From Chloroflexota bacterium (GTDB taxonomy: Bacteria > Chloroflexota > Dehalococcoidia > DSGV01), in contig JAJYLG010000002.1 in assembly GCA_021787985.1 (NCBI GenBank), forward strand, positions 45,089 to 103,640: a stretch of DNA of 58,552 nt. Direction: 5' to 3'. Every line of letters starts with the position of its first letter. Position 1 is the stretch's first letter. Below are positions 1,974-53,114 of the stretch, piece by piece. A model generated the notes under the pieces. That model searched no databases, was not told where the DNA came from, and saw only the letters and a list, made by a program, of their open reading frames with translations. The position numbers and the translations under genes were made by a program.

Positions 1974-2321
1974 ATGGCACATCCGGTGGTGCACTGGGAA
2001 ATCGCGGCCAAGGATGCCGGGAAGCTGCGGGAGTTCTACGCCAAGCTCTTTGACTGGCGGGTCAACGTCGACCAGGGTGGCTACGCGATGGTCGAGCCGG
2101 GCGGCGAAGGCGGCATCGGCGGCGGGATCATGCAAGCTCAGGGCGACGTGCCCTCCTACGTGACGGTGTACGTGCAGGTGGACGACCTGCAGTCCTACCT
2201 GGACCGCGCCGTCAGCCTGGGCGGCACCGCGGTTGTTCCGCCCACGCCGATCCCGGGGATCGGGGCGTTCGCCATGTTCCTCGACCCGGAGCAGCACCTG
2301 ATCGGTCTCTTCAAGGAGTAG
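1974..2321 (+). CDS. VOC (glyoxalase/bleomycin-resistance fold) protein
   Basis: A 115-aa single-module VOC protein starting at ATG 1974 behind a good GGAGGA ribosome site at 1961-1966. It begins with HPVVHWEIAAKD and REFYAKLFDW, and ends with AMFLDPEQHLIGLFKE, as in the many small VOC proteins annotated as putative glyoxalases or hydroxylase-like enzymes. Metal-ligand positions typical of the fold (H at residue 7, E near the C-terminus) are present. A specific substrate cannot be inferred. It lies 67 nt after the ArsR-like fragment, with its own ribosome site. Confidence 0.8.
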   Translation: MAHPVVHWEIAAKDAGKLREFYAKLFDWRVNVDQGGYAMVEPGGEGGIGGGIMQAQGDVPSYVTVYVQVDDLQSYLDRAVSLGGTAVVPPTPIPGIGAFAMFLDPEQHLIGLFKE

Positions 2322-2346
2322 CCGAGAGGCCGCGGCGCGACGTCAC

Positions 2347-2394
2347 GGGAACCGGGAACCGGGACTTGAGATCTGAGATCTGAGATCTGAGATC
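2347..2394. repeat. Short tandem repeats (GGGAACC and GAGATCT units)
   Basis: Two runs of 7-bp units stand next to each other between the VOC gene and tRNA-Thr: CGGGAAC-type units at 2347-2363 and GAGATCT at 2368-2394, the latter as three full copies and one partial. No coding role is visible. The GAGATCT run is self-complementary in part and could form slipped structures. Confidence 0.7.
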
Positions 2395-2503
2395 GGGTGA
2401 AAGCGCGCGGTCGTGGCGCGCGAGCGGAGGGATTGCTACGCTCTGAGTGCCGGCCGCATCCGCCAGGGTTCCACCTGAGGTGAACGGGCGCGGCCCTTCT
2501 CAT

Positions 2504-2578
2504 GCCGGCGTAGCTCAGTGGTAGAGCAGCCGCTTCGTAAGCGGCGGGTCGGGGGTTCGAATCCCTTCGCCGGCTCCA
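2504..2578 (+). tRNA. tRNA-Thr (anticodon CGT)
   Basis: A full cloverleaf can be drawn. The acceptor stem is GCCGGCG with CGCCGGC (2568-2574), the discriminator is T, and an encoded CCA ends at 2578. The D arm has GCTC/GAGC. The anticodon stem GCCGC/GCGGC (2529-2533 and 2541-2545) encloses loop TTCGTAA with anticodon CGT at 2536-2538, reading ACG threonine codons. The T arm has TTCGAAT between GGGGG and CCCTT, with two G-T pairs. Confidence 0.96.
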
Positions 2579-2829
2579 GCGATTCTCCCGCGCGTGCTAC
2601 GAACGAGCGAGTGTGGCGCCAGGTAGTGGCTGCGGGCCTGCCCGTGGACCGCGTGGTTTCGTGGATGCACAGTGGCGCTCACCACAGGCTCGGTCTCGCT
2701 GCCCGTGACAGACTCATTGATGCCCGAGAGGACGCCATGCGGGCGACAACCCCGGCACGCGCAGCCACGTTCGCTCGTGGTGGTGCTGGTTTGCAGCTTG
2801 AGCGGGGAGCGCCGGCGAAGGCACAAATC

Positions 2830-3030
2830 GTGGAAGTCCAGACCAACCCGAGCACCGTGGCAGCGGTCCCCATGCTGGCTCGGCTCGTTGCCACCGACGG
2901 CGCGGAGGCGTTGACCCCGGACGAAGCCGAGCGAGAGTTGTGGGCCCTGTTCGCGGACGTGCCCGTGAGCCTGAGCGACGAGCTCTGCCGCGAGCGTCGG
3001 GAGGAGGCTCGTCGCGAGGCTATGCGCAAT
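2830..3030 (+). pseudogene. Remnant of a VapB-type antitoxin
   Basis: One frame here carries LTPDEAERELWALFADV followed by SLSDELCRERREEARREA. This is the usual C-terminal half of short antitoxins paired with PIN-domain toxins (family knowledge). The N-terminal DNA-binding half does not appear. The frame runs back through unrelated sequence into tRNA-Thr and no convincing start is present, so I read it as a decayed fragment. It is directly followed by a PIN-domain fragment in another frame, which supports the reading. Confidence 0.45.
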
Positions 3031-3050
3031 GGGGCCGTCATAAGCCCGGT

Positions 3051-3245
3051 GAATATGGCGGGGGGTTGCGCAAAGCCACTGACTACGACCAGGACTGGCG
3101 AGCGGTGGCCGGACTGCTCAGCGCGAGCGGGTTGATTCAACGGCCATTCGAACCGTCCGACGCGGCACCAAGCGCTGATATCTACCCGCGTGTGAAGCAC
3201 CTTGGTCGGTCCCTCGGTGACCGGGCGAGCTGGCGCTGGGACTGA
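3051..3245 (+). pseudogene. Remnant of a VapC-type PIN-domain toxin
   Basis: The frame ending at TGA 3243-3245 reads LRKATDYDQDW, then GLIQRPFEPSDA, ADIYPRVKHLGRSLGDRASW. This matches the middle of VapC proteins, where a PF..eDA block is followed by LGLSLGDRACLALA. The N-terminal part with the first catalytic Asp and the C-terminal part with the last acidic residues are both missing, and the conserved RACLA has become RASWRWD before the stop. No start codon with a ribosome site is seen. It therefore cannot be an active nuclease as it stands. Confidence 0.5.
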
Positions 3246-3963: not shown

Positions 3964-4694
3964 GGTTGTCCTGATCCTAACTGCTTCGGCTGCTGACCGG
4001 CTCCGAGCTCCTGCTTGAGTGACTGCAGCTCGATCTCCACGTTCTGCTGTGTACCGATCTTGGCGAGCTCCGCTTCCACCTTGTCGGGGCTCCCCGACAG
4101 GTCGGTGAGGACGCCCTGGTCGACGAGCTCGTCGATCGCGCCGGCCCGAGCCTGCATCTCCTGAGTCTTGTTCTGCGCCCGGTCGAGCGCCATGCCGACA
4201 TCGGCCATCTCCTCGGAGACGCCGGTGAACGCTTCGCCGATCTTCACCTGCGCGGTGGCGGCGGAGTACTGGGCCTTGACGACCTCCTTCTGCGAACGGA
4301 ACGTCTCGATCTTCGTCTCGAGGCGGGCTTCCGCCGCGCTCAGCTTCTGCTGCTGGGCGTCGAGGTCGGCGATCTGCTGCTGGAGCGCCGTGAGCTGCGC
4401 CTGCGCGTCCTGCTTGCGTTGCAGGACGACGCGCGCCAGGTCCTCGCGCCCGGCGGCCAGCGCGCGCCGCGCCTGGTCGTCCGCCTTGCTGAGGTTGTCC
4501 TGAATCTGCGCCGCCTGAAGCTCGAGACGATGCTTGGATGTCGTGACCTCCACGACGCCCTGCTTGACCTGGCGCAGCAGATCGAGCTGCTTCTCGTACG
4601 AGTAATCGAGGATCTCGCGCGGGTCCTCGGCGCGGTCGAGCAGCTTGCTGATCTTGGCGCGGACGATGGTGCTGGTGCGGGAGAAGATGCTCAT
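3960..4694 (-). CDS. pspA: Phage shock protein A / IM30 (PspA)
   Basis: A 244-aa, mostly alpha-helical coiled-coil protein of the PspA/Vipp1 (bacterial ESCRT-III) family. It starts MSIFSRTSTIVRAKISKLLD, then DPREILDYSYEKQ, and continues as a long Q/A/E-rich coiled coil to about residue 190. A short helix ends in NVEIELQSLKQELG. PspA binds damaged or stressed inner membrane and polymerises. The N-terminal amphipathic helix expected for membrane binding is present. It overlaps both neighbours by 4 nt in an operon with the protease HtpX. Confidence 0.92.
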   Translation of the reverse strand: MSIFSRTSTIVRAKISKLLDRAEDPREILDYSYEKQLDLLRQVKQGVVEVTTSKHRLELQAAQIQDNLSKADDQARRALAAGREDLARVVLQRKQDAQAQLTALQQQIADLDAQQQKLSAAEARLETKIETFRSQKEVVKAQYSAATAQVKIGEAFTGVSEEMADVGMALDRAQNKTQEMQARAGAIDELVDQGVLTDLSGSPDKVEAELAKIGTQQNVEIELQSLKQELGAGQQPKQLGSGQP

Positions 4695-52368: not shown

Positions 52369-52412
52369 AGAGCCCCCGGTCGCGTGCGTCCTCGCACGCG
52401 ACCGGGGGCTCT
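52369..52412. terminator. 20-bp near-perfect hairpin between the thioredoxin-like gene and moaA
   Basis: GAGCCCCCGGTCGCGTGCG (52370-52388) pairs with CGCACGCGACCGGGGGCTC (52393-52411) around a TCCT loop; A52369-T52412 adds one more pair. It lies 28 nt after the end of the upstream gene (52440) and 89 nt before moaA. It is the strongest hairpin of the window and very likely a terminator, though without a T-run. Confidence 0.75.
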
Positions 52413-52439: not shown

Positions 52440-53114
52440 CTAGCCGGCGGCCGCCAGCACGCTGTCCAGGAATCGCTCCTCCGGGACCGCGCCCATCACC
52501 TCGACCGTGTCGTTGATGACGGTCTTGGGCACGCCCATCACGCGGTACTTCTGGGCCAGATGGGGGAACTCGGTCGCCTCGATCACGTCGGCCGTGACGC
52601 GGGAGCTTGCCTTCGCCATGAGGTGGGCCAACCTGGCCGCACTGGGGCAGTACGGTCAGGTGGGGGTGACGAAGACCTTGATGTTGACGTCGCCGGTGAG
52701 CTCGGCCAGCTTGGTGACCGTTTCCGGCTGCAGGTCCGCTTCGGCGCGCGAGGCGTCGACCAGGTCCGAGACGATCACGGCGAACTCATAGCCCGAGGGC
52801 ACGCCCCAGTAGCGCATGCCGCCGGCGACGTGCGGGCTGCGGACGATGGTGACCGGGACGGCATCGACGCCGTGCTCCTTCGCCTTGTCGGCGTCGGCCA
52901 CCAGGTCGTAGACGGTGAGGTCGATCTTGTCGGTGAAGGTGGCGACTTCTTCCAGGAGCTCACGTGTCTCGGTGCAATACTGGCAGTCGTGCCGCCCGGG
53001 GACCAGCAGCGGCGAAGCCGCCTGCGTGAAGTGGATGACCTCGACGGGGTCCGTGAGGTTCTTCTCGAAGTGCTGGCGGATCTCCTCCGCCTGCTCAGGG
53101 GTGAACAGCGACAT
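52440..53114 (-). CDS. Two-domain thioredoxin-fold disulfide oxidoreductase, predicted selenoprotein
   Basis: Reading through one in-frame TGA (52656-52658) gives 224 residues from ATG 53114, which follows GGAGG. The protein is a tandem thioredoxin-fold (PDO-like) oxidoreductase. The first domain has C44-Q-Y-C47 with AVPVTIVRSPHV; the second reads VKVFVTPT-[TGA]-PYC-PSAARLAHLM with MGVPKTVIND further on. The TGA occupies residue 153, where homologous domains have the first Cys of CPYC, so selenocysteine is the simplest reading. Without readthrough the protein would end one residue before its second active site, leaving a separate 63-codon frame whose homology starts before its first ATG. A hairpin with an AGGUU loop begins 13 nt after the TGA. 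No selenocysteine machinery lies in this window; mutation or sequence error are the alternatives. Confidence 0.78.
52623..52642 (-). promoter_or_regulatory. Candidate bacterial SECIS element
   Basis: In the mRNA, GUG-C-GGCC, loop AGGUU, GGCC-CAC folds into a 7-bp stem with one bulged C. The loop starts 21 nt after the UGA (52656), inside the 16-37 nt window usual for bacterial SECIS. It has G residues at the loop start like the AGGUCU loop of E. coli fdhF. The expected bulged nucleotide is C rather than U. Confidence 0.5.

Follow-up and report, generated by a model that had tools for sequence, protein, structure and literature searches.

The window analyzed here, a stretch of 58,552 nucleotides from a Chloroflexota draft genome, carries on its minus strand a gene for a protein of 224 residues of the protein disulfide oxidoreductase (PDO) type, provided that one in-frame TGA is read as selenocysteine (Sec) (Table 1). 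The frame is open from the ATG to the final TAG but for this TGA, and the first-pass annotation, which had joined two adjacent frames into a 224-residue product by readthrough, placed the protein correctly and left the strand unstated. Without readthrough, the region falls into an open reading frame of 163 amino acids, counted from an upstream TTG and closing at the TGA, and a second one of 63 amino acids, whose TTG start (52631) lies nine codons past the TGA and within the conserved region. The neighbors of the gene share its strand, moaA lying downstream and a gene for an MscS-type channel upstream, and no redox-partner operon surrounds it in the window. It appears to form a single-gene unit, parted from moaA by a perfect inverted repeat that is possibly a transcription terminator devoid of a T run; a consensus scan for terminators followed by a T run returned none. 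In some relatives, the PDO gene is located amid genes for a glycosyltransferase, a CDP-alcohol phosphatidyltransferase, and a peptidase-MA protein, a neighborhood that does not suggest a redox partner either. An Rfam scan of the window returned a single tRNA-Thr and no further RNA family.

Table 1. Features of the PDO locus (positions in the window)
Feature	Position	Strand	Evidence
PDO coding sequence, 224 amino acids with UGA read as Sec	52440..53114	minus	ATG at 53114, TAG at 52440-52442; translation
In-frame UGA, predicted selenocysteine 153	52656..52658	minus	translation; codon common to Sec homologues
C-terminal redox center U153-P-Y-C156	52647..52658	minus	aligned to CPYC of 1a8l, 1j08, and Cys homologues
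N-terminal redox center C44-Q-Y-C47, ordinary cysteines	52974..52985	minus	aligned with CQYC of 1a8l
V195-P196, conserved proline of the C-terminal thioredoxin fold	52527..52532	minus	invariant in 19 homologues
Predicted bacterial SECIS hairpin GUG-c-GGCC-AGGUU-GGCC-CAC	52623..52642, core 52626-52638	minus	folding and covariation
Perfect inverted repeat separating the PDO gene from moaA, 20 bp, loop of 4 nt	52369..52412		sequence

Since 311 TGAs in this 70% GC window are preceded by at least 40 open codons and followed by at least 25 (scan of all TGAs), an open frame around a TGA is weak evidence by itself. What exceeds chance is that one family model extends across the TGA, that proteins of known structure have a Cys at its position, and that a TGA occupies the same codon in dozens of genomes. 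In particular, the model TIGR02187 (NCBIfam PDO_seleno_TRX, a name that itself contains "seleno") matches the protein with 256.1 bits (cut-off, 185; 1.8e-76) from residue 7 to residue 221, covering model positions 3 to 208 of 209 and running straight across the TGA. The PDB alignments with the PDOs of Pyrococcus furiosus (1a8l) and P. horikoshii also pass through the TGA, and they place the Cys of the CPYC motif exactly there, as do the Cys homologues, in agreement with the initial proposal that the TGA stands for the first Cys of such a motif. The ordinary C44-x-x-C47 that had been read in the N-terminal domain is C44-Q-Y-C47 in the translation and, together with U153-P-Y-C156, it gives the pair of an N-terminal CxxC and a C-terminal (C/U)xxC that marks the TIGR02187 family.

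The predicted structure points to the same family. The AlphaFold2 model, obtained with the TGA read as Cys and with an alignment made of the window and locus proteins only, reached a mean pLDDT of 91.7 and a pTM of 0.87, and Foldseek matched it over the whole chain to the P. furiosus PDO 1a8l (TM, 0.90/0.89), so that the protein is predicted to consist of tandem thioredoxin folds. The conserved P196 occupies what we take to be the position of the cis-proline that faces the active site. Two other identities were considered and rejected, namely AhpF (alkyl hydroperoxide reductase subunit F), whose model gave 54.7 bits where 502.9 are required and whose full length, with thioredoxin-reductase-like domains at the C-terminus, is not attained by a protein of only 224 amino acids, and the Uxx-star glutaredoxin-like selenoprotein NF041212 (25.6 bits against 66). 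The same genome encodes a second TIGR02187 protein (L083, G000:C138:46000-51500, 2289-3197, minus strand) that scores 172 bits, below the cut-off, and has its second center reduced to C-P-Y-S. Its neighbors are genes for a glycosyltransferase, a CDP-alcohol phosphatidyltransferase, a peptidase-MA-like protein, and prfB, and similar genes surround the PDO gene, in its Sec or Cys form, in several relatives.

The genome that holds the PDO gene (3.5 Mb, a draft in 189 contigs, 95.6% complete, with 3.9% contamination) was searched for selA, selB, selC, and selD, as the first-pass annotation had recommended, and all four were found. The tRNA-Sec, with the anticodon UCA, scored 78.7 bits, and the profile scores of selA (489.8 bits), selB (341.6 bits), and selD (331.6 bits) were each above the cut-off. 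The GC content of the contigs with sel genes (69 to 73%, compared to 70% in the window) gives no sign of contamination. A piece that had been considered a second selA copy was a contig-end duplicate, 98% identical, and the match taken for a second selB copy was EF-Tu. Furthermore, selD (L019, G000:C22, around 1501-1560) contains one in-frame TGA, in the catalytic motif CGGU; it is thus a predicted selenoprotein gene itself and serves as an internal positive control. The tRNA-Sec gene (L001, G000:C86, 1501-1598) adjoins trxA-trxB, which encode thioredoxin and thioredoxin reductase, and the same adjacency occurs in several other genomes of the class (L053, L055, L056, L058, L059, L065, and L072).

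Homologues were surveyed in 100 close relatives, then in 393 genomes of the class, and then in 400 genomes of the phylum, mostly draft MAGs. Within the class, a single in-frame stop, in all cases TGA, interrupts 26 homologues from 25 genomes. In the Sec forms read residue by residue, this TGA takes the initial position of the second C/U-x-x-C, with the motif U-P-[YHW]-C in the class. The codon is TGA in 24 distinct Sec homologues, almost all of which belong to the class, and in all 30 fetched from outside it; among the roughly 110 homologues retrieved across the phylum at E<=1e-50, 55 contain exactly one TGA. One apparent Sec form (L270) owed its place to a loose pattern, its stop being TAG, and was removed from the set. 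The alignment of homologues at position 153, which had been advised at the outset, revealed either TGA or Cys in this column, never Trp among the sequences aligned, and no frameshifts in the relatives. A strong tRNA-Sec was present in 25/25 genomes with a TGA form versus 256/393 (65%) class-wide, with a naive chance of about 2e-5 that ignores relatedness.

Of the Cys forms, those closest to the Sec group come from two genomes (G037 and G011) in neither of which a tRNA-Sec was found. Seven Cys-form genomes that were checked do possess a tRNA-Sec, and it follows that an organism able to use Sec in this protein need not do so. The group of homologues, judging from its sequences, probably belongs to Chloroflexota. 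In a quick tree whose deep branching is unsure, parsimony counts 8 changes between the Sec and Cys labels, and at least 3 of them fall on well-supported branches, which indicates that the exchange is recurrent. Between close pairs of Sec forms, the dN/dS ratio downstream of the UGA is 0.14 to 0.31, which indicates that this part of the gene is translated and constrained. The PDO of the window shares 58 to 65% identity with its Sec relatives after the UGA and 41 to 49% before it.

The first-pass annotation had regarded a Sec confined to the second active site as unusual. This arrangement occurs, however, in every Sec homologue examined, and the family had already been catalogued. Moreover, among the 15 Sec forms read first, 8 (L028, L029, L033, L037, and L039 to L042) have no N-terminal CxxC and keep U-P-[YH]-C as their only redox center of this kind, so that in these proteins the Sec center would have to work alone; a further Sec form, L043, is a cut-short sequence and stands outside these eight. 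It is possible to speculate that some Chloroflexota PDOs form a distinct, single-center seleno-PDO group, with a chemistry or a partner other than those of the two-center archaeal enzyme, and that Sec has been gained and lost several times, but this is a tentative idea toward which we lean less than away. A presumed tandem pair of Cys and Sec PDOs (L119) was discarded, the second gene encoding a separate Sec glutaredoxin-like protein. This small gene, found around position 4448 of an Anaerolineae contig roughly 1 kb beyond a PDO gene of the Cys form, contains an in-frame TGA (MKVIVYTTPTUPYCYQAKEFL).

Downstream of the UGA, the predicted SECIS hairpin of the window begins its loop after 21 to 22 nt and has a folding energy of -11.0 kcal/mol over 24 nt, a stability attained by 0/500 synonymous recodings. 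The published bSECIS model asks for a loop of 3 to 9 nt, a stem of 4 to 16 bp, a G in the first two loop positions, a spacing of 16 to 37 nt after the UGA, and an energy of at most -7.5 kcal/mol (PMC13188914), and the hairpin, with its spacing and its GGCC-AGGUU-GGCC core, lies within these limits. Most Sec forms of the class have GGCC-AGGNU-GGCC starting 17 nt past the UGA, with the loop at 21 to 22 nt, and across the Sec forms a hairpin with a G[G/U] apical loop is located 20 to 22 nt after the UGA; the Cys forms encode the same residues in this region, mostly with other codons. Both of the pairs that join two wobble positions are of the Watson-Crick type in 20/24 Sec forms versus 13/97 Cys forms of the class (p=1e-10) and in 19/30 versus 5/33 of a held-out set from outside the class (p=1e-4). 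In the held-out set, a hairpin with an [N]G[G/U] apical loop, a criterion that allows a register shift and was fixed after a first look at these sequences, occurs in 30/30 Sec versus 8/33 Cys forms (p=6e-11). The compensatory changes at the wobble-wobble positions are G-C to C-G, C-G to A-U, and C-G to G-C, and the covariation score was matched in 0/500 shuffles, this value and the Fisher values being overstatements of significance because the sequences are related.

Folding and generic rules were less informative than the comparison of homologues. Of the TGA trinucleotides present in the window, 19.5% satisfy the generic bSECIS filter, which accepts 18/24 Sec versus 35/97 Cys forms; in GC-rich DNA it discriminates poorly and is too weak when used alone. 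When the 47 nt are folded in isolation, the MFE structure is a competing hairpin, CCGUACUG-CCC-CAGUGCGG, which directly follows the UGA and is more stable than the SECIS hairpin, and the overall stability of this segment is unremarkable (z, -0.67). Thus, MFE folding of the 40 to 47 nt past the UGA did not pick out the SECIS hairpin, whereas the comparative evidence did.

Among the other explanations of the TGA, the one that survives best is that it is decoded as something other than Sec, be it Trp under an altered code, the product of generic readthrough, or Cys carried by tRNA-Sec when selenium is short. The eukaryotic Sec machinery can insert Cys under selenium limitation, and a partial misinsertion of this kind would be compatible with our data. 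However, the aligned column with Cys and never Trp, the release factor 2 gene (with its GGQ motif) present in the genome, the complete Sec machinery, and the in-frame TGA of selD all speak against non-Sec decoding, and generic readthrough would need neither a conserved hairpin nor a catalytic position; we judge this explanation to be very improbable. A recent nonsense mutation, leaving a pseudogene whose product is only the N-terminal part, agrees with a frame that stops at the TGA if there is no readthrough, but not with a single stop, always TGA, at one codon in dozens of genomes that represent many families, nor with the constraint downstream, the tRNA-Sec in all 25 class genomes with a TGA form, and the covarying hairpin. 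Given this conservation, the mutation can be considered refuted in practice, with only the slightest probability left to it. A sequencing or assembly error that turned TGC or TGT into TGA, conceivable in a draft of 189 contigs, is just as implausible, since about 50 independent genomes share the TGA and have, downstream of it, the hairpin that most Cys forms do not have. Least credible of all are two separate genes, one for an N-terminal domain and the other for a C-terminal domain with a start of its own, since the TTG available at 52631 would yield a product devoid of the first strand and the catalytic motif, and all the homologues are continuous.

The sequence elements by which bacterial selenoproteins are recognized, namely, a UGA at the Cys position of homologues, the genes selA, selB, selC, and selD, and a SECIS hairpin, are all found here. 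We therefore hold it to be highly probable that the PDO is a genuine selenoprotein of the TIGR02187 family, in which SelB and Sec-tRNA(UCA), with the help of the hairpin, would insert Sec153, and in which the U-P-Y-C center would act in redox exchange. The selenocysteine-dependent disulfide oxidoreductase that the first-pass annotation had put forward is thus supported by the family model, the fold, the machinery, the conservation of the codon, and the hairpin, all of them read from sequence. For its decoding, redox activity, electron donor, and substrates, we infer a scheme of the following kind. SelB, charged with Sec-tRNA(UCA), would recognize the UGA and the hairpin just 3' of it, so that Sec is incorporated as residue 153. 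Its selenolate would be the attacking, nucleophilic half of a selenylsulfide/dithiol exchange center, with Cys156 as the resolving residue. The protein would work on its substrates as a monomer of two thioredoxin folds, with the N-terminal CQYC as a second, ordinary dithiol center. By analogy with archaea, where PDO-type proteins are reduced by thioredoxin reductase (PMC7278568), this enzyme is the presumed electron donor.

The PDO family has already been listed as a UxxC selenoprotein family (PMC1794560, PMC9312934, and PMC13188914), and in the open-licence texts searched, we found no statement about its Chloroflexota members. What the present sequence comparison adds is that predicted Sec PDOs are frequent across Chloroflexota, that Sec and Cys have been exchanged repeatedly, and that some Sec lineages have lost the N-terminal CxxC. 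An annotation with translation table 11 alone would truncate the PDO at the UGA, here and in many Chloroflexota, with the loss of one of its two redox centers. Related genomes, of which some possess a tRNA-Sec and others do not, alternate between the Sec and the Cys form of the protein; the family may therefore be used as a natural experiment on the benefit of selenium in a thioredoxin-fold enzyme, and it could also serve to study the gain or loss of a SECIS hairpin within a constrained coding sequence.

With the catalogued Sec PDO family, which includes members in Symbiobacterium and in the Asgard Sifarchaeia, the protein of the window shares the TIGR02187 model and the UxxC motif listed for the family; it differs in its phylum, Chloroflexota, and the likeness is drawn from the family listing. 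The N-terminal domain of AhpF (5h29 and 1zyn) has a similar tandem thioredoxin-fold architecture (TM, about 0.8), but the PDO described here has no flavoprotein reductase module. The closest parallels are the PDOs of P. furiosus (1a8l), P. horikoshii, Aquifex, and Aeropyrum, which likewise have two thioredoxin folds per chain, with CQYC and CPYC at matching places (35% identity; TM, 0.90). Different from these P. furiosus-type enzymes, where the first residue of the C-terminal center is Cys, the PDO of the window is predicted to have Sec at this position.
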